Source: an uncultured Sulfolobales archaeon (GTDB lineage Archaea > Thermoproteota > Thermoprotei_A > Sulfolobales > NBVN01). From it: 64,000 nt of DNA. The position numbers were made by a program, and so were the translations under genes. The notes under the pieces are model-generated. The model searched no databases, was not told the DNA's origin, and saw only the letters and a list, made by a program, of their open reading frames with translations. This document shows positions 2 to 11,214 of this stretch, piece after piece; position 1 is the stretch's first letter, and each line of letters opens with the position of its first letter. The stretch covers positions 62,001-126,000 of the forward strand of contig CALEDH010000009.1 in the NCBI GenBank assembly GCA_937949785.1. Direction: 5' to 3'.

Positions 2-1177
2 TTAGCTTTCAAAGCTATTTTCATGCCGTACGCGTCATTCACTATGCTAGCTATTTACCTATTTACGTTTATGGGAATTATATTCCAAAAGACTGGGCTG
101 GCGGCTTTGCTAATTGACGCGTTAGAACCGTTGGTGGGTAGGGTTAAAGGAGGTCTAGCCTTAGTTACGGTTCTAGCCAGCGCTTTCTTCGGCACTTTAA
201 CTGGCTCAGCTAACGCGACTGCTGCGACTTTCTCACGTTTAGTAGGTCCTGAAATGGTGAAGAGGGGTTATCCGAAACCTTTTGCAGTCTCAATAATAGC
301 TGCTTCAGCTCCTCTAGGCTCTTTCATACCACCATCAATAACAGGTATAGTATTATCTGTAGCGACGAATACCTCAGTACTAACTAACTTTATGGTTGGT
401 GCGGCTATAGGCTTCTTAGTAATAATCTTCCTCTTCATAACAATCCTGACAATTTCGTATAAATTTGTAGGGGGAACAATAACTACAGTTGGAAGCAGAT
501 ATACGAAGAAGGAAGTAATCATAAGGGTTGCTAAGGCGTTCCCGCTTCTTCTCATGCCGCTAGTAGTTCTTGGTGGGATATATTTCGGGGTCTTCTCAGT
601 TACTGAAGGTGGTGCGGCTGGGTGTTTAGCAGCTCTATTACTAGCTGTGACATATAGAAGGATTAACCTTAAACTCCTACGCGATGTTATGGTTGACTCA
701 GCTGTGACTACAGGGATGGTAATGCTATTAGTAGGTACTTCATATCTTATGAGCTATACGATGAGCCTTACAGGACTGAATAAAGCGTTTATAGACATGC
801 TTAGATCTATGTCCTTAACAACTCCTTATCTAGCACTTCTAGCGTTGGTTGCAATCCTATTAGCCATGGGTTGCTTTATAGATGTCATAGTTTTATGTAT
901 AGCTATGGCACCATTAGCTGTCATAGCTTTGATGCCTTTAGGAATAAACCCGTACCATATTAACGCTTTATTCCTAGCTGGCAATTTAATAGGTAATGTA
1001 ACTCCACCGGTTGGGACAGTACTCTTCATATCACTGCAGTCCTTAAACGAGAAGATGGAGAAAGTCTTCAAAGCCTTATTACCATTCCTAGTAGCATACA
1101 TTATTGTATACTTAATCATAACGTTAATTCCGGAGACAGTGCTGTGGTTCCCTAGACTTTTAGGGCTCTCTATATGA
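2..1177 (+). CDS. dctM: TRAP transporter large permease (DctM-like), 5'-truncated by window edge
   Basis: Hydrophobic ORF with DctM-like motifs (GTLTGSANATAATFSRLVGPEMVKRGY, PPSITGIVLSVATNTS, NLIGNVTPPVGTVLF). The reading frame is open upstream of the first ATG to the window edge. Confidence 0.85.
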   Translation, partial: LAFKAIFMPYASFTMLAIYLFTFMGIIFQKTGLAALLIDALEPLVGRVKGGLALVTVLASAFFGTLTGSANATAATFSRLVGPEMVKRGYPKPFAVSIIAASAPLGSFIPPSITGIVLSVATNTSVLTNFMVGAAIGFLVIIFLFITILTISYKFVGGTITTVGSRYTKKEVIIRVAKAFPLLLMPLVVLGGIYFGVFSVTEGGAAGCLAALLLAVTYRRINLKLLRDVMVDSAVTTGMVMLLVGTSYLMSYTMSLTGLNKAFIDMLRSMSLTTPYLALLALVAILLAMGCFIDVIVLCIAMAPLAVIALMPLGINPYHINALFLAGNLIGNVTPPVGTVLFISLQSLNEKMEKVFKALLPFLVAYIIVYLIITLIPETVLWFPRLLGLSI

Positions 1178-1218
1178 ATTAAAACATTTAAAGTTCAGAT
1201 GATTTTTTATCTGGGAAT

Positions 1219-3660
1219 ATGGCTTCTTACAGTTTGTCTAAGTTAGTTAACGAATTTTACAAAAACGTAATGATGTTTAAGCCTTCACTCTGCCATGAAA
1301 GGGCAATGATACTTACTGAGTCCTACAGGACGTCTGAGGGCTTACCTCAAATAATTAGGAGGGCTAAGGCTATTAGAGAAGTTCTTGAGGGGATGAGCGT
1401 ATATATTCTGAAGGGCGAGTTAATAGTTGGTAATCAAGCATCAAGACCTAAGGCAGCACCTCTATTCCCCGAATTCTCGATATCATTCCTGGTTAACGAG
1501 TTAAATGAAATTCCTAGGAGACCTTTCGACTCGTTTGATGTAGGCGTTGAGGTCAAGAACGTCATAGATAAGATATCTACTTACTGGTTCGGGAAAACAC
1601 ATGAGGATAGAGTTACGTATCTCATATCGCTTGTATTACCGGATGAAGCCTTAAGATCTTTTAACATCAATAGCTTCGTACTTAATGATGTAATATATGC
1701 AGGGGTTAGGAAGGCCTCAGGTGATGGGCATATAATACCGAATTACCAGACGTTACTACGTTTAGGCTTCCCCGGCATACTTAAGAATGTTGAGGATGAG
1801 ATAAGCAAATTAGACCTTACCGATACCCAATCATTTAAGAAGGCGTTATTCCTAGAAGCTGTTAGGATAGTTTACGAGGGTGTTTTAAGCTTCATAAAAC
1901 GCTATTACGTCTTAGCTAGGGAAATGGCCGACGGTGATGTTGATGATGATTGGAGAGATGAGTTACTGAGGATTGCTGAGGTATGTAGTAACTTACTTAT
2001 AGGGCCGCCTAAGACGTTTAGGGAGGCTCTCCAACTAATTTGGTTCGCACATTTAATACTTCAGATAGAGTCTAACGGTCATTCAGTATCTTTGGGTAGG
2101 TCAGATCAGTACCTCTACCCGTACTATGAGGCAGACGTACGTGAAGGTAGGATTACTAAGGAAGAAGCTTTAGAACTCATTAAATGCTTCTTAATTAAGA
2201 TGAACACCTTAAATAAGGTAAGGCCTTGGAGTGAGACAAGATATAAAAGTGGATATCCGTTATTTATGACAATAACTTTAGGCGGTCAAACACCTGATGG
2301 GCAGGATGCAACTAATGAGCTCACATACCTATTCTTAGATGCGTTGGCTGAAGTTAAACTCCCACAGCCAACGATCGTATTGAGAGTTCACTCTAAGACT
2401 CCTGAAAAGTTATTAGTCCACGCTGTTAAGGTCTTAATAAGGCATGGTGGTGGGCTACCAGCATTCTTCTCCGATGAGGTCATAATACCGGCTTTGATGA
2501 ATATGGGTATTACGGTATATGAAGCTAGGGAATATGCGATAGCTGGGTGTTCTGAAGCAGTAATACCTGGGAAGAGCTTATCATTTACCGGCGGTGTTTG
2601 TTACTTCAACCTACTGAAATTGCTTGAAATAACTTTAAACGATGGGTGTAACCCTAGAAATGACTTATGTTTATTTAACACTACGAGAGAGATTGATGAG
2701 TTAAGATCTGTGGATGAGCTTATTGAGGAATTTAAGAATCAGCTAGCATTCTATACTAAGTTCATAGTCCCGCTAACCTCTATAACATCTGCTACAGATG
2801 CCGATTTAAATCCGACGCCGTTCGCCTCTTCTCTAATGGATCATAGGATAGAACTAGGCTTAGATATTAGTGAGGGAGGAGGTCCTAACAATAAGTACTC
2901 GCATACGATAATTCAGGGACATGGAATAGCGAATGTTGCTAACTCATTATACGTTATTGAGGAATTAGTGTTTAGAGAGAAGTTACTTACTTTGAAGGAG
3001 TTTAGGGAAATCCTACTAAGTAATTGGGGTGGGGTTCGAGGAAAGGAGTTAAGGAAATTAGCTCTGAACATACCTAAATACGGTAACGACGTAGATGATG
3101 TGGATAGGTACGCTAAGATTATTTCAAAGCTCTTCTACGATGAGGTAATGAAGTACAGACCTCTACGCGGTGCCGTCTTCGGATTATCACTTCAGGGTTT
3201 AACAGCTAATGTCCCGGAGGGCGAGGCCACCGGTGCAACCCCGGATGGCAGACTATCTGGTGAGGCACTCGCAGATAACGTATCACCTCACCCAGGAACC
3301 GATAGGAATGGAGTTACAGCAATTCTTAAAAGTGTCTCTAAAGTAGACCATTCATTATTTATTAATGGGAATATACTGAATATTAGGTTTCATCCAAGCG
3401 TTTTAACAGATGGCTTCGGAGGTATTGATGAGGGTAAGGTCTTACGCTTTGTGAAGATGTTAGAGACATTCCTAATAGATCTGAAGGGATTTCAAGTACA
3501 ATTCAATATAGTATCTGCTGAAGTCCTTAGAGAGGCTCAGAAGGAGCCGTTAAAACATGCTAACTTAGTCGTGAAGGTCGCTGGGTATAGTGCGTATTTC
3601 ACCTCGTTGGACAGGAAATTACAAGATCAAATAATACTTAGGACTGAGCATCTGCTTTAG
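1219..3660 (+). CDS. Glycyl radical enzyme (pyruvate formate-lyase/dehydratase-like), paralog 1
   Basis: 813 aa. C-terminal glycyl-radical motif VVKVAGYSAYF, active-site Cys in IAGCSEAVIPGK, and GATPDGRLSGEALADNVSPHPG. Confidence 0.93.
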   Translation: MASYSLSKLVNEFYKNVMMFKPSLCHERAMILTESYRTSEGLPQIIRRAKAIREVLEGMSVYILKGELIVGNQASRPKAAPLFPEFSISFLVNELNEIPRRPFDSFDVGVEVKNVIDKISTYWFGKTHEDRVTYLISLVLPDEALRSFNINSFVLNDVIYAGVRKASGDGHIIPNYQTLLRLGFPGILKNVEDEISKLDLTDTQSFKKALFLEAVRIVYEGVLSFIKRYYVLAREMADGDVDDDWRDELLRIAEVCSNLLIGPPKTFREALQLIWFAHLILQIESNGHSVSLGRSDQYLYPYYEADVREGRITKEEALELIKCFLIKMNTLNKVRPWSETRYKSGYPLFMTITLGGQTPDGQDATNELTYLFLDALAEVKLPQPTIVLRVHSKTPEKLLVHAVKVLIRHGGGLPAFFSDEVIIPALMNMGITVYEAREYAIAGCSEAVIPGKSLSFTGGVCYFNLLKLLEITLNDGCNPRNDLCLFNTTREIDELRSVDELIEEFKNQLAFYTKFIVPLTSITSATDADLNPTPFASSLMDHRIELGLDISEGGGPNNKYSHTIIQGHGIANVANSLYVIEELVFREKLLTLKEFREILLSNWGGVRGKELRKLALNIPKYGNDVDDVDRYAKIISKLFYDEVMKYRPLRGAVFGLSLQGLTANVPEGEATGATPDGRLSGEALADNVSPHPGTDRNGVTAILKSVSKVDHSLFINGNILNIRFHPSVLTDGFGGIDEGKVLRFVKMLETFLIDLKGFQVQFNIVSAEVLREAQKEPLKHANLVVKVAGYSAYFTSLDRKLQDQIILRTEHLL

Positions 3661-3760
3661 TAGTTTCATAGAAGGTTTTCTGGTTAAGTTATTAATTAGA
3701 GCGAGCGACGTAATATAGAAATATTAGTATGCTATCATATTATTAGTCAGTGTTAAGCGT

Positions 3761-6184
3761 ATGCTGCTTAAGTCGGATAAGGATTTAAGGTCTTTACGTA
3801 TTAGCTTGCTCAAGAAGCAAGTATTAATAGACCGTGAAGTCGATGTAAGTAGGGCTCTGCTAGTTACCGAGTCCTACAGAGAAACAGAGGGAGAGCCGCC
3901 TCCTATAAGGAGGGCTAAAGCACTCAGTAAAATTCTATCTGAGATGCCTATATACATAATGGACGGTGAGTTGATCGTTGGTAATCAGAGCTTTAAACCT
4001 AGGGCAGGTCCTCTTTTCCCTGAATGGCAGGTAGATAGAACATTAAACGAGATGCATACATGGCCTGTACGTCCAGGCGATAAATTTAAGATAAGTGATG
4101 AGCAGGTACGGCAGTTGAGGGAGGTTTTAAGTTATTGGAGAGGTAAAACAGTGATGGATAGGGTGTTTTCAATTCTCCCTGACACGTGTAGGAGGGCTAT
4201 GAAGTACGGGGTCTTCAGTGTTTATAACTATATGACTTCCGGACACGGTCACTTCATTCCTAACTATGAGAAGGTACTTAAGCACGGTCTTAACGGTGTT
4301 AAAGAAGAAGTTATTAGAAGGTTAAATGAGTTAGATTGGACTGAGCCTGACTATTACGATAAGGTCGTATTTTACAGGTCTTTACTTATAACTGCCGATG
4401 CTGTGATACACTTTGCTAAGAGGTATGCTTCACTTGCTAGGGAATTAGCTGCTAAGGAATCAGACCAGCGACGTAAGATGGAGTTGGAGATGATAGCGGA
4501 GGTATGCGATAACGTTCCGGCAAACCCGGCTAGGAATTTTTGGGAGGCACTTCAATCAGTTTGGTTTATACTGCTTACTGCTCAAATAGAGCAGAACGGC
4601 TTAGCAGTAGCGCTTGGGAGATTCGATCAGTACATATATCCTTACTATAAGGCTGATGTCGAGAAAGGCGTTTTAGATGAGGAGGCTGCTTTAGAGTTAG
4701 TCGAATCCTTCTACGTGAAGACGAACGTCATAAACAAGGTTTACGATAACGAGGGGGCTGTAATAAATGCTGGCCCAGCATTAGGTCAGGTAATCACGTT
4801 AGGTGGGGTTACTAGGGATGGGGATGACGCCGTCAACGAGCTGACTTACCTCTGCCTTAGGGCAGATGCTGAGGTAGGCCTCATGCAGCCCGACTTCGCT
4901 GTAAGACTCCACCCGAAGATATCTGAGGAATTCTTAGTCTTCCTAGCTAAGCACATAGCTAAGAATCCATCTAAGATCAAGTTATTTAACGACTCAGTAG
5001 TTATCCCAGCGCTCATCAATGTCGGAGTTCCCTTAGAAGATGCTAGGGATTACGCGCTTTTAGGTTGTTCTGAAGCTACGATTCCAGGTAAAACATGTAG
5101 TGGAGGTAATTTCGGCCAGATAAACTTAGCTAAATGTTTAGAATTAACTTTAAATAACGGTAAGGTTATGTGGTACTTCGACGGTGAGAAATTCCATTTA
5201 AATCCGGAGGGAGAAAACGTTGGATTACCGACAGGCGATGTTGAATCGTTTAAAACATATGAGGATTTATGGAATGCGTTTAGAGCTCAGCTATCACATG
5301 CTGTTAAACTACTAGTGACTACGGTGAATATAATTGATAAGGTTCAAGGAGAGTTAACACCTCATCCGTTGTTCTCCCTAGTCACCGATGGATGTGTAGA
5401 GAGCGGGTTAGACTTCACTAGAGGTGGTGCTGTATACAACTTCACAGCTCCAATAGCCATAGGAGCTATAACGGTAGCTGACTCTTTAGCAGCTGTTAAG
5501 TATTTAGTCTTCGATAAGAAGGCTATCAGTATGAGGGAACTCGTTAGGCATTTACGTAATAACTTTGAAGGAAGTGAAGGTGAGTACCTAAGATTAAGGT
5601 TAATACATGAGGCCCCTAAGTTTGGTAACGACGACCCTTACGTAGATAACATTGCTGCAGATACTGTGAAGGCCTACGTCGATGAGATAAGTATGTATGA
5701 AAATCCTAGAGGGGGGTTCTTCGTTGCTAGTATTTACTCGTTGACCGGTAACGTAAGTTATGGATGGCGTACCGGACCAACACCTGATGGTCGGAGAGGT
5801 GGTGATCCGTTAAATGACAACGTATCACCAACTGTTGGTAGAGATTTAAGAGGGCCTACAGCAGTTATAAGGTCGTTATCACGTATTGACTCCCAATTAC
5901 TTCCTCAAGGGTATATCTTTAATTTGAAGTTCTCTCCAATAATACTTAGCGATGACGCTAAGATCGGGAGATTTATATCGTTTATTAGATCTTTACTTGA
6001 CTACGGTATATTCCACGCACAGTTCAATATAATATCAGCTAATACTTTGAGGGAAGCTCAGAGGTATCCTGAGAGGTATCGTAGCCTATTAGTAAGAGTT
6101 GCTGGTTACTGCGCTTACTTCGTTGAATTAGGTAGGGAAGTTCAAGAACATATAATAGCTAGAACTGAGTATGAAACTGTTTAA
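3761..6184 (+). CDS. Glycyl radical enzyme (pyruvate formate-lyase/dehydratase-like), paralog 2
   Basis: 807 aa. Glycyl-radical motif LVRVAGYCAYF, Cys motif LLGCSEATIPGK, and GPTPDGRRGGDPLNDNVSP. Confidence 0.93.
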   Translation: MLLKSDKDLRSLRISLLKKQVLIDREVDVSRALLVTESYRETEGEPPPIRRAKALSKILSEMPIYIMDGELIVGNQSFKPRAGPLFPEWQVDRTLNEMHTWPVRPGDKFKISDEQVRQLREVLSYWRGKTVMDRVFSILPDTCRRAMKYGVFSVYNYMTSGHGHFIPNYEKVLKHGLNGVKEEVIRRLNELDWTEPDYYDKVVFYRSLLITADAVIHFAKRYASLARELAAKESDQRRKMELEMIAEVCDNVPANPARNFWEALQSVWFILLTAQIEQNGLAVALGRFDQYIYPYYKADVEKGVLDEEAALELVESFYVKTNVINKVYDNEGAVINAGPALGQVITLGGVTRDGDDAVNELTYLCLRADAEVGLMQPDFAVRLHPKISEEFLVFLAKHIAKNPSKIKLFNDSVVIPALINVGVPLEDARDYALLGCSEATIPGKTCSGGNFGQINLAKCLELTLNNGKVMWYFDGEKFHLNPEGENVGLPTGDVESFKTYEDLWNAFRAQLSHAVKLLVTTVNIIDKVQGELTPHPLFSLVTDGCVESGLDFTRGGAVYNFTAPIAIGAITVADSLAAVKYLVFDKKAISMRELVRHLRNNFEGSEGEYLRLRLIHEAPKFGNDDPYVDNIAADTVKAYVDEISMYENPRGGFFVASIYSLTGNVSYGWRTGPTPDGRRGGDPLNDNVSPTVGRDLRGPTAVIRSLSRIDSQLLPQGYIFNLKFSPIILSDDAKIGRFISFIRSLLDYGIFHAQFNIISANTLREAQRYPERYRSLLVRVAGYCAYFVELGREVQEHIIARTEYETV

Positions 6185-6208
6185 TTGGTTAGGTCTTAGA
6201 GTGATTTC

Positions 6209-7138
6209 ATGCAGATTAAAGGGCTTATATTCAACATACAGAAGTATTCGATACATGATGGTCCTGGTATAAGGACCTTAGTATTCGTTAAGGGATGTCC
6301 TCTAAGATGTCTATGGTGTTGTAATCCTGAGGGTCAAACCCCTCAGCCAGAGATCATGTACTACAGGAATTTATGCGTTAGTTGTGGTATGTGTACTAAG
6401 GTATGTCCTAGAGGTGCCTCTGTATTTAGAGATAACAGCGTAGTATATAATAGAGAGTTATGTACTAGTTGTGGTGCGTGTGTTAGGGTATGTCCTACAG
6501 GTGCTAGGAAGTTAGTAGGTAAGTACGTAACCGTTGATGAAGTTTTATCTGAAGTCCTTAAGGATATGAAGTTCTATGTTAGAAGCGGTGGTGGTTTAAC
6601 AGTAGGTGGTGGTGAGCCGCTCACTCAACATGAATTCGTTAAAGAGTTGTTAAGGAGGGCTAAGGAGTACGCAATACATACAGCAGTTGAGACAAGCCTG
6701 TATGCAGGTCCTCACATAGTTAAGGAAGTACTAAGGCATACCGATTATCTATTCGTTGATATTAAACATGTAGACCCCACCAAACATTTAGAGTTGACCG
6801 GGGTATCAAACGAGTTGATACTTAGTAATATAAGGTACGTTCTTAGTGAATCGTTAGTCGATGTAAGTAGCTTCGTAATAAGGATACCGATAATACCGAG
6901 TGTAAACGATGACTACGGAAGTCTTCGAGGTATCGCTGAGTTCATTAGGTCTCTTAAACATGAGGTCTCTGTAGAACTACTACCATATCACGAACTTGGA
7001 AAACATAAGTATGAAGCCTTAGGTAGGGAATACGCGTTAAGCAATCCGATTTGGAAGGTATTCATACCATCTAAAGAATATTTAGAGAGCATTTCAAAGT
7101 TCTTAACCTCATTAGGGGTTAAGTTAGTCAGTACATGA
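6209..7138 (+). CDS. Glycyl-radical enzyme activating enzyme (radical SAM with two ferredoxin-type 4Fe-4S motifs)
   Basis: N-terminal SIHDGPGIRTLVFVKGCPLRCLWCCNPE (CxxxCxxC) followed by CVSCGMCTKVCP and CTSCGACVRVCP. Confidence 0.93.
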   Translation: MQIKGLIFNIQKYSIHDGPGIRTLVFVKGCPLRCLWCCNPEGQTPQPEIMYYRNLCVSCGMCTKVCPRGASVFRDNSVVYNRELCTSCGACVRVCPTGARKLVGKYVTVDEVLSEVLKDMKFYVRSGGGLTVGGGEPLTQHEFVKELLRRAKEYAIHTAVETSLYAGPHIVKEVLRHTDYLFVDIKHVDPTKHLELTGVSNELILSNIRYVLSESLVDVSSFVIRIPIIPSVNDDYGSLRGIAEFIRSLKHEVSVELLPYHELGKHKYEALGREYALSNPIWKVFIPSKEYLESISKFLTSLGVKLVST

Positions 7139-7149
7139 GGTGTTAGTAG

Positions 7150-8889
7150 GTGGAAGTCAGGAAGACTGACGTCCTTGTAATCGGTTGCGGAGGTGCTGGG
7201 TGTAGGGCAGCAATTGAAGCTAAGAAGTTAGGAGTTGATGTGACGTTGATATGTAGGGGGGAGTTAGGAATTAGTGGATGTACACCTAATTCCGCATCTG
7301 AGTGGATGGCGTACTCGGTTGCCTTAGGTTTCGGCGATGTTAAGGATAGCCCGGAAGAACATTTTAAAGACATAGTTACTACTGGCGCATACGTCCTAGA
7401 TCAAGAATTGGCTAGGATCATTGCTTATGAAGCTGTAGATAGGTTTTATGATCTGGTTGGATACGGTGTACCGTTTTTAAAGGATGTTAATGGGAAGTTC
7501 TTACAACTAATGTCTGACGGAGCTACCTATCCAAGGGCCTGCGGTACAGGCGCTGATACAGGTAAGAGGATCGTAGAAGCGCTTGCCAGCATTGTAAGTG
7601 ATTCTGATATAGAGATTTACGAAAATGTTATGGCAGTAGACCTTATAGTTGAGCACGGCCGTGCCTATGGCGCTGTCGGTATAAACCTTACTAATTTAGA
7701 ACCGCAGGTCTTCGTAGCTAAGTCTACAGTTTTAACTACTGGTGGGTTAGGTGATATTTTCATGCATAGCGTTTATCCAAGTGGGATGTCAGGTGATGGG
7801 TATGCTATGGCTTTAAGAGCTGGGGCTAGGTTGATTAATATGGAGTTCATGCAGATCGGGCCTTGCATCACCTCTAACGTTAAGTTTGATGTTGGAGGTC
7901 CTCTCTGGCGGTTAAAGCCTAAGCTATATAATAGAGATGGTGAGGAGTTCCTTAAACGTTACTTACCTAATAATATAAGTATTGATGATGTGTATAGATG
8001 GAAGTCCGTCACGTTCCCCTTCACCATTAGGAACCCTTCCGGGTTAGTAGATGTGGCTTGCTTTACTGAGATCTCTGAGGGTCGGGGAACTCCGGACGGC
8101 TACGTATACTTCGACCTAACCCATGTTGGTGATGAGATCGTTGAGAAAGCGCCCTACGCCTGGAAGTTCCTGTCAGAGCATGGACTTGACCTCAGGGAAC
8201 AACCTATAAAGATAGCGCCAGCAGTTCAACATCTTAACGGCGGAGTTTTAATTAATGAAAGAGCTGAAACCGATGTTAAGGGTTTATATGCTGCTGGTGA
8301 GGTAGCAGGGGGTCAGCACGGAGCTGATAGGCCTGGGGGGAATTCCCTAGCGGATTGTCAGGTGTTTGGAGCTAGGGCTGGGAGGTACGCAGCAGAACTT
8401 GCTAAGAACTCAACCTTAGGATATGAGTGGCGTAACGTTTCAGAAGGAATCGTAGGTAACATTAATAGGATAGCGGAATTTAACGGTATTTATGAACCGA
8501 CTATTGTTAAGGAGGAGTTGAAGAGGGTTTTATGGTATAACGCAACTGTTGTGAGGACTAAGGCATCACTCTTAGAGGCTATTGAAAGTGTAGGCAGGTT
8601 CAGGGATATCATTTTTAATCGTTTAAGGGTTAACAGTAAGAATTTAGTCATAGCTCTTGAGTTGAGGAATATCGTTGATGTCTCAGCAGCTATGCTTAAA
8701 GCCATGTTAAGTAGGGAGGAGAGTAGGGGAGGTCATTACAGAGCTGACTACCCGTTCAGAGATGATGTTAATTGGGTTAAATTCGTAGTAATTCGTAGTT
8801 TTAATGACGATTTAGTTATAGATTTCATAAAGCCTAAGACTGCCTACCTAAAACCTAATCCCTTAGTCATGTCAGTATTCATGGATTGA
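7150..8889 (+). CDS. FAD-binding fumarate reductase/succinate dehydrogenase-like flavoprotein
   Basis: N-terminal Rossmann GCGGAGCRAAIEAKKLG and GLYAAGEVAGGQHGADRPGGNSLADCQVFGARAG. Confidence 0.88.
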   Translation: MEVRKTDVLVIGCGGAGCRAAIEAKKLGVDVTLICRGELGISGCTPNSASEWMAYSVALGFGDVKDSPEEHFKDIVTTGAYVLDQELARIIAYEAVDRFYDLVGYGVPFLKDVNGKFLQLMSDGATYPRACGTGADTGKRIVEALASIVSDSDIEIYENVMAVDLIVEHGRAYGAVGINLTNLEPQVFVAKSTVLTTGGLGDIFMHSVYPSGMSGDGYAMALRAGARLINMEFMQIGPCITSNVKFDVGGPLWRLKPKLYNRDGEEFLKRYLPNNISIDDVYRWKSVTFPFTIRNPSGLVDVACFTEISEGRGTPDGYVYFDLTHVGDEIVEKAPYAWKFLSEHGLDLREQPIKIAPAVQHLNGGVLINERAETDVKGLYAAGEVAGGQHGADRPGGNSLADCQVFGARAGRYAAELAKNSTLGYEWRNVSEGIVGNINRIAEFNGIYEPTIVKEELKRVLWYNATVVRTKASLLEAIESVGRFRDIIFNRLRVNSKNLVIALELRNIVDVSAAMLKAMLSREESRGGHYRADYPFRDDVNWVKFVVIRSFNDDLVIDFIKPKTAYLKPNPLVMSVFMD

Positions 8890-9001
8890 TAGTAACATGA
8901 GTAAGCTGCCTAACTAACTAACCATGGCTTTATTTTAAAGCTTATATATCTTTTAATGTATACTCATAAGGTACTCATAAGACGTATGGTGGTAGACACT
9001 A

Positions 9002-9451
9002 ATGCCTGAGGCCATGTTTAAACATATAGTTAGAGTGGCTGGTACCGATTTGAATGGTAACCTTAAACTACAGTATGGTTTGTTGAGGATTAAGGGTGTA
9101 GGATATCAACTCGCTACGTTTATAATTAGGGCTTTAGGTTTAAGTCCTGATTTGAGGGTTGGTTACCTATCAGATAGTGATGTTAAGAATATAGAAGGTG
9201 TTCTAGCTAATCCGTTAAGTTATGGAATGCCGGTATGGGTTTTGAATAGGAGGAAGGACCGTGCTTCAGGTTCTGATTTACATTTCATCGGCGCTGACCT
9301 CATGTATGTGGCTAGGGAGGATATTGAGAGGGAGAAAGGTATTAAGTCTTGGAGAGGTATTAGACATGCGTTGGGACTTAAGGTGAGGGGTCAGAGAACT
9401 CATACTACTGGGAGGTTAGGCCGTACATTAGGTGTGAGTAAGAAGAAGTGA
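9002..9451 (+). CDS. rps13: 30S ribosomal protein uS13
   Basis: GIKSWRGIRHALGLKVRGQRTHTTGR; operon context. Confidence 0.97.
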   Translation: MPEAMFKHIVRVAGTDLNGNLKLQYGLLRIKGVGYQLATFIIRALGLSPDLRVGYLSDSDVKNIEGVLANPLSYGMPVWVLNRRKDRASGSDLHFIGADLMYVAREDIEREKGIKSWRGIRHALGLKVRGQRTHTTGRLGRTLGVSKKK

Positions 9452-10368: not shown

Positions 10369-11214
10369 GTGGGTTTAATGAGTTTTAACGTTAGCGTTGT
10401 GGAGAGGGGAGATAACTACATTAAGATATTATTTGATGGTGTACCACTGCAGTTAGTTAACGCTATTAGGAGGGCTGCATTGACCGAGGTCCCATCGATC
10501 GCTATAGCCGACGTTCTCTTCATAGATAATACCTCAGCACTGTATGATGAGATAATAGCGCATAGGTTAGGTCTAATACCGCTTACTTCTGATGAGGCGC
10601 TTAGCAAGTATAGACTGCCTGAGGAATGCGTTGAATGCGGTGAGGTTGAGGGATGTGAAGGATGTTACACGATAATCACGCTCGACGTAACGGCTAAGGA
10701 GGAAGTAACGACTGTTTACTCAGGTGACCTCATATCTCAAGATCCCGACGTAAGGCCTGTAAGTCCTAAAATACCGATAGTGGTATTAGCTCCGGGTCAG
10801 AGACTAGCTTTTGAGGCAAGGGCTAGATTAGGTAGGGGTAAGGAACACATTAAGTGGAGTCCTGCTACAGTTGCTAACGTTACCTACCTAGCTAAGGTAG
10901 GCGTTGATAGAAGTAGATGTGTTCTATGCGGTAAATGTGTTGATGTATGTCCTAGAAAGGTTTTTAGCGTAGCTTCTAATGGTATTGAAGTCGATGAAAG
11001 TAAATGTATATTATGTAAGCAGTGTGTTAAGGTTTGCGATTATGAGGCAATAAACTTAGGTTGGTATGACGATAAGTACATGCTCTACATAGAGAGTAGC
11101 GGTGCTTTAGCACCGGAAAGAATATTTTTAGAAGCTCTTAAAATAATTGCTAATAAACTTCGTAACCTCTACGAAGAGGTAAGTAAGTTAGGAGGTTATG
11201 TGGGGGGAAGCTAA
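10369..11214 (+). CDS. rpo3: DNA-directed RNA polymerase subunit Rpo3 (RpoD) with ferredoxin-like domain
   Basis: RpoA/D fold motifs (LVNAIRRAALTEVPSIAI, IAHRLGLIPL) plus two CxxCxxCxxxC motifs. Confidence 0.95.
   Translation: MGLMSFNVSVVERGDNYIKILFDGVPLQLVNAIRRAALTEVPSIAIADVLFIDNTSALYDEIIAHRLGLIPLTSDEALSKYRLPEECVECGEVEGCEGCYTIITLDVTAKEEVTTVYSGDLISQDPDVRPVSPKIPIVVLAPGQRLAFEARARLGRGKEHIKWSPATVANVTYLAKVGVDRSRCVLCGKCVDVCPRKVFSVASNGIEVDESKCILCKQCVKVCDYEAINLGWYDDKYMLYIESSGALAPERIFLEALKIIANKLRNLYEEVSKLGGYVGGS

Follow-up and report, generated by a model that had tools for sequence, protein, structure and literature searches.

A seven-gene glycyl-radical enzyme operon in a Sulfolobales archaeon: a possible horizontally acquired route for degrading a polyhydroxylated organic acid

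The window, a stretch of 64,000 nucleotides from the genome of an uncultured Sulfolobales archaeon, begins inside a seven-gene operon with the order dctP-dctQ-dctM-GRE1-GRE2-activase-flavoprotein, which is cut by the window edge. A previous sequence-only reading had described five co-directional genes, which the reading frames and the Pfam/NCBIfam matches bear out as real and intact, and had advised a look upstream for DctP and DctQ, both of which were found there, in a stretch that also includes the full dctM (L004:171-3177). The dctP gene (L004:171-1355) and the dctQ gene (L004:1365-1862) lie outside the window, upstream of base 1; dctP matches NF037995 with 194 bits (cut-off 50), and dctQ, which matched no family model, was recognized only from its position, size, and hydrophobicity. 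The gene of the TRAP large permease, dctM, begins outside the window, about 150 bp before base 1, extends into it with its 3' part (2..1177, plus strand), and has a complete frame on the genome contig (L004:1846-3177; PF06808, 3e-74). On the same plus strand follow the genes of two glycyl-radical enzymes (GREs), GRE1 (1219..3660; PF02901, 9e-190, and PF01228, 1e-22) and GRE2 (3761..6184; PF02901, 2e-215, and PF01228, 8e-25), the gene of a radical-SAM activase (6209..7138), whose recognition as such beside the GREs is upheld by a TIGR02494 score of 352 bits (cut-off 174), and the gene of an FAD flavoprotein of the SdhA/FrdA/NadB superfamily (7150..8889), with matches to PF00890 (FAD_binding_2) and PF02910 (Succ_DH_flav_C). 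The gaps between the operon genes range from -17 to about 100 bp, and the run from dctP to the flavoprotein is probably co-transcribed. TATA-like A/T-rich stretches were recognized by eye about 40 bp upstream of dctP and before S13 (8937-8949). Downstream of the flavoprotein, the S13, S4, S11, and RNA polymerase genes begin at 9002, and no Fe-S or membrane partner subunit was found within the operon or adjoining it, as had already been remarked for the surroundings of the flavoprotein. The RNA polymerase subunit D encoded in this region (10369-11214) has an inserted two-cluster ferredoxin-like Cys pattern, an insert known from some archaea.

Both GREs contain the motifs GCSE and GHxxPNY and thus the Glu two positions after the active-site Cys as well as the GxGH His, which together mark the C-O lyase class of GREs, with glycerol dehydratase, CutC, and HypD as examples. 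The glycyl-radical and Cys motifs are intact in both, the former in a C-terminal loop of the RVxGY type, with Cys444, Glu446, and the radical Gly789 in GRE1, and Cys436, Glu438, and the radical Gly782 in GRE2, and the conserved catalytic residues place the two in this C-O lyase (dehydratase) class, as originally proposed. The activase has a CxxxCxxC motif and two 4Fe-4S motifs in a ferredoxin-like insert, and this single activase presumably serves both GREs. The gene set had not been recognized as a characterized archaeal pathway, and neither GRE reaches any curated specificity cut-off: the best NCBIfam equivalog score for either was 643 bits, with cut-offs of at least 994, and with the HypD, CutC, HpsG/HpfG, and arylacetate decarboxylase models no score exceeded 631 bits, with cut-offs of 1000 or more. 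In our alignment, neither exceeds about 41% identity to any characterized enzyme, a value far short of the about 60% that serves as a divide between GRE activities (PMC6453916). GRE1 and GRE2 share 42% identity and differ in their active-site signatures, and maximum-likelihood trees place them in two distinct clades with no characterized member in either; bootstrap values were 100% for the GRE2 clade and for the core of the GRE1 clade. The GRE1 clade adjoins the group of YbiW and the allose-locus GREs, a join with a bootstrap of only 68-74%. Kinship with the common GREs of Thermoproteota was considered and rejected, as most of those that entered the tree are HypD-like, and they belong to another clade. 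In a fold search, for which alone we used the structural model of GRE1 (pLDDT 73, with poor active-site loops), the nearest folds were glycerol and propanediol dehydratases.

A residue signature of seven catalytic positions (164, 281, 282, 433, 435, 447, and 763) was compared with those of characterized GREs. The signature of GRE1 (H164 H281 S282 C433 E435 G447 G763) equals that of the allose-locus GRE of L064 and is identical at seven of seven positions to that of E. coli YbiW (8id7), whose extended Cys-loop, with TG at its end, is also similar. However, YbiW shares only about 36% identity with GRE1, belongs to a separate clade, and lies below the orthology threshold of about 60% (PMC6453916). 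YbiW converts 1,5-anhydroglucitol-6-phosphate to 1-deoxyfructose-6-phosphate (PMC12441222) and thus acts on a PTS-imported sugar phosphate, whereas the operon described here encodes a TRAP importer and contains no PTS gene. The signature of GRE2 (H, L, A, C, E, N, G) is shared by all four sequences of its clade and occurs in none of the characterized references that were compared. The glycerol and 1,2-propanediol dehydratases (1r8w, 5i2a, 9rco) are the nearest to GRE1 by sequence and by predicted structure and have the same Cys, Glu, His, and Gly, but the identity is about 40%, and the positions of their triad (His281, Ser282, Asp447) are occupied by H, S, and G in GRE1, and by L, A, and N in GRE2. 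Asp447, the contact to the substrate hydroxyl in glycerol dehydratase, is replaced in both enzymes, by Gly in GRE1 and by Asn in GRE2. Again and again, newly found GRE clades with novel active-site signatures have proved to catalyze new reactions.

The predicted function of DctPQM is that of a complete TRAP importer of an organic acid; an organic-acid uptake by TRAP had been proposed from the permease, and it is now backed by the full set of components and by the carboxylate-binding Arg that is kept in DctP. The best solved relatives of DctP are 4pf8, sialic-acid binders, 4X8R, and 4N8Y, of which the latter two bind glucuronate and galacturonate, respectively (PMC11668362), and DctP keeps two Arg and an Asn that have been described for glucuronate-binding TRAP proteins (PMC7660916). 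These comparisons seem to favor a sugar-acid-like ligand, with the reservation that the homology of TRAP binding proteins is a weak guide to the ligand and that the conserved Arg and Asn residues recur in many TRAP proteins.

The flavoprotein had been described as fumarate-reductase-like, and the superfamily assignment stands, whereas the dicarboxylate (succinate/fumarate) site does not: four of its five residues are lost. QFHP, with the catalytic His, has become QIGP, and PRD, with the Arg that serves as proton donor, has become PSG; the EGxRGEGG stretch has lost its Glu and HYxMGG its His, and only the Arg of HGAxR is kept. With TfrA, SdhA/FrdA, and NadB, the protein shares the superfamily, the FAD domain, and the C-terminal domain, but it lacks the FAD-linking His in addition to the mentioned site residues, its identity to them is about 30%, and it represents a diverged subfamily with an SVTFPFT-type insertion. 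Orthologs are present in two other Thermoproteota lineages (L057 and L058, with 66 and 49% identity); the site residues are changed there as well, and the orthologs adjoin genes of a 2-keto-3-deoxygluconate (KDG)-type PfkB kinase and a Zn alcohol dehydrogenase. A phylum-wide search gave no GRE match in the genomes of these orthologs. For the flavoprotein, AlphaFold with an alignment of two sequences gave a model with a pLDDT of 31, which was discarded. We considered an enoate-reductase role and dismissed it on account of the changed active-site residues, which make such a role unlikely, and we rather suppose that the flavoprotein carries out a hydride transfer on a carbohydrate-type acid. Its divergence cautions against calling every SdhA-like protein a fumarate reductase.

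The seven genes have not come together by chance, as another, independent MAG of the genus, SKYB66 (Sulfolobales), has them in the same order, with 70-86% identity and close to the same S13. Besides these two, the sample contains no genome of the genus, and the other sampled family members lack these GREs, two of them carrying distant GREs only. The gene order in the genome of the window is TruB, tRNA-Ser(TGA) (L003:17811-17897), operon, and S13 (window position 9002), whereas TruB, tRNA-Ser(TGA), and S13 are adjacent in the family member G004 (L110), with about 106 bp from the tRNA to S13. Because G004 thus has the empty site, the compared gene orders identify the operon as a discrete insertion, a single block placed between tRNA-Ser(TGA) and S13; no flanking or att-type repeats were found at the tRNA-Ser/S13 junction. 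Outside the genus, GRE1, GRE2, and the activase have their closest relatives in a trio of a Firmicutes MAG (L015), with 65, 65, and 58% identity, respectively, and a second pairing of GRE1 and GRE2 occurs in a deltaproteobacterial MAG (L016), with 48 and 47% identity. A transfer from anaerobic bacteria would be the simplest reading of this origin. Bacterial nearest relatives of the GREs would also be expected if a bacterial fragment had been wrongly joined to an archaeal contig during assembly or binning, but such an artefact is hardly conceivable, as the operon is situated between TruB/tRNA-Ser and S13 inside a 126-kb contig, and as the independent MAG of the genus carries it on a 237-kb contig, again close to S13. 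The case would show that whole radical-enzyme pathways can enter archaea as single insertions.

The trio of the Firmicutes bacterium (UBA3567, L015) is orthologous, but its order is GRE2-activase-GRE1, neither TRAP nor flavoprotein genes are adjacent, and downstream there are genes of another GRE homolog and of a TPP-dependent dehydrogenase complex. A relative of this bacterium (G432, L091) has the same dctPQM-GRE-GRE-activase layout, but the GREs are non-orthologous to GRE1 and GRE2 (39-45% identity), and at its end the operon has genes of a 2-hydroxyacid dehydrogenase and an isopropylmalate/homocitrate-synthase-like protein. Since non-orthologous GREs occur in this arrangement, the TRAP-GRE-GRE-activase layout itself recurs. 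In neighborhoods that were read by eye, the bacterial genes of the GRE1 clade (L016, L017, and L097) are found near genes of sugar-type ABC transporters, PfkB kinases, Zn alcohol dehydrogenases, DeoC, and DUF362 proteins, and the E1 component of a TPP-dependent dehydrogenase is encoded near GRE1-clade genes in two genomes (L015 and L017).

We propose, with a probability of about 0.42, that the operon serves as an anaerobic cassette, acquired horizontally, which degrades a polyhydroxylated organic acid by means of two oxygen-sensitive GRE dehydratases and a redox step of the flavoprotein. DctPQM would import a polyhydroxylated carboxylic acid of the sugar-acid type, for example a uronate, an aldonate, or a keto-deoxy acid, and the activase would form the glycyl radicals using SAM. 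With its YbiW-like site, GRE1 could act on a vicinal diol, which would lose one hydroxyl by 1,2-elimination and become a deoxy-keto or deoxy-aldehyde acid, and GRE2 could catalyze a second, different radical elimination on the product of GRE1 or on another stereoisomer. The flavoprotein would then contribute a hydride transfer on an intermediate other than fumarate, either the oxidation of a hydroxyl or the reduction of a keto or ene group, with a soluble electron carrier. The substrate, the order of the reactions, and the direction of the flavoprotein reaction are our suppositions in this scheme. The sugar-type ABC transporters, PfkB kinases, and Zn alcohol dehydrogenases beside the GRE1-clade genes of L016 and L017 speak for a sugar-type pathway, whereas the known YbiW substrate, which is a PTS-imported sugar phosphate and not an acid, and the location of the UxaA and DHDPS family genes far from the operon speak against the sugar-acid reading. 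In SKYB66, a UxaA gene is situated about 4 kb upstream of dctP; it was discarded as a pathway member, as opposite-strand genes lie between the two and as it is absent from this position in the genome of the window. A search of the archaeon's own genome for a KDG kinase with the L057 query gave no match, an empty answer that is uninformative. In the open-access literature that we searched, we found neither GREs that act on sugar acids nor GREs that are associated with TRAP transporters and uronic acids. It may even be, though we hold this stronger claim only tentatively and with more doubt than belief, that a new radical route for sugar acids or polyhydroxy acids has passed from anaerobic bacteria into an archaeal lineage of hot environments, with two GREs, a TRAP-imported acid, and a flavoprotein in which a carbohydrate-acid site has replaced the fumarate site.

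The two GREs might alternatively work in parallel on different substrates or stereoisomers, in a generalist scavenging of polyols and sugar acids rather than in consecutive steps. Their low mutual identity, distinct clades, and different signatures would fit this, as would the bacterial GRE1-clade genes that have no adjacent GRE2 (L017, L018, and L019), but the orthologs of both are found together in L015, in L016, and in both archaea, which suits a shared pathway, and we regard the parallel use as rather unlikely, while giving it more weight than the remaining alternatives. Much less probable is the scheme originally suggested, in which a GRE makes an unsaturated acid that the flavoprotein reduces as an electron sink, comparable to the fumarate, urocanate, or methacrylate reductases. 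The superfamily of the flavoprotein would suit this scheme, and no oxidase partner is encoded nearby. However, the residues needed to bind and protonate such a substrate are absent from the flavoprotein and its orthologs, and the characterized GRE C-O lyases produce, to our knowledge, carbonyls or imines and not isolated alkenes. An alkene reduction is unsupported because the site has been lost and because the orthologs are encoded beside sugar kinases in archaea without detected GREs. We give no more credence to a sulfonate catabolism, in which isethionate or dihydroxypropanesulfonate, substrates of a type that had also been considered for the GREs, would enter via TRAP and be cleaved at the C-S bond or dehydrated. 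A combination of TRAP, GRE, and activase is known for isethionate (PMC11668362, PMC6453916) and is shared with the Desulfovibrio operon with IslA/IseG, but that operon differs from the one described here in the two GREs, the flavoprotein, the non-sulfonate family scores, and the unlike binding protein. The sulfopropanediol dehydratase models (HpsG/HpfG) score 539 and 513 bits for GRE1, and 631 and 622 bits for GRE2, with cut-offs of 1000, and for both GREs the isethionate lyase of known structure came out well behind glycerol dehydratase, with 488 vs. 608 bits in one of the two comparisons. The isethionate binder 8t9t is likewise far below other TRAP proteins as a match of DctP (82 bits, compared to 133 bits for the best match), and the operon contains no sulfite-handling gene. 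For the proposed degradation of a polyhydroxylated acid, the pairing of GRE1 and GRE2 in distant bacteria and in an archaeon, together with an importer whose ligand can be screened, makes the discovery of the substrate directly testable.

Some observations concern the relatives and the host genome. DUF362-type proteins are encoded beside GRE operons at L017:13408-14631, L092:13215-14453, L095:6514-7659, and L097:11937-13214, and also beside the flavoprotein ortholog at L057:8466-9677, with a Pfam confirmation for L017 only and recognition by eye for the others; maybe they are electron donors for activation. The bacterium G423 encodes two GRE homologs (L015:8156-10549 and L094:672-3098) that have Ala in place of the radical Gly (VRVAAY) and keep the active-site Cys. 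They form a fully supported clade, the L015 copy has its own activase nearby, and they are possibly radical-less relatives of GREs. Bacterial TRAP-GRE(-GRE)-activase operons that end with the 2-hydroxyacid dehydrogenase and isopropylmalate/homocitrate-synthase-like genes are present at L091:2451-15040 and L095:198-10884, and their gene content suggests another uncharacterized GRE pathway. In the window's own genome, a TPP-dependent E1alpha/E1beta/E2/E3 complex is encoded at L107:9055-14632 (G000:C8), with a NAD-kinase-like gene, AcoX-like as judged by eye, between the genes of its subunits, and the UxaA, DHDPS, and FAA-hydrolase family genes are found at the same locus, separate from the operon.
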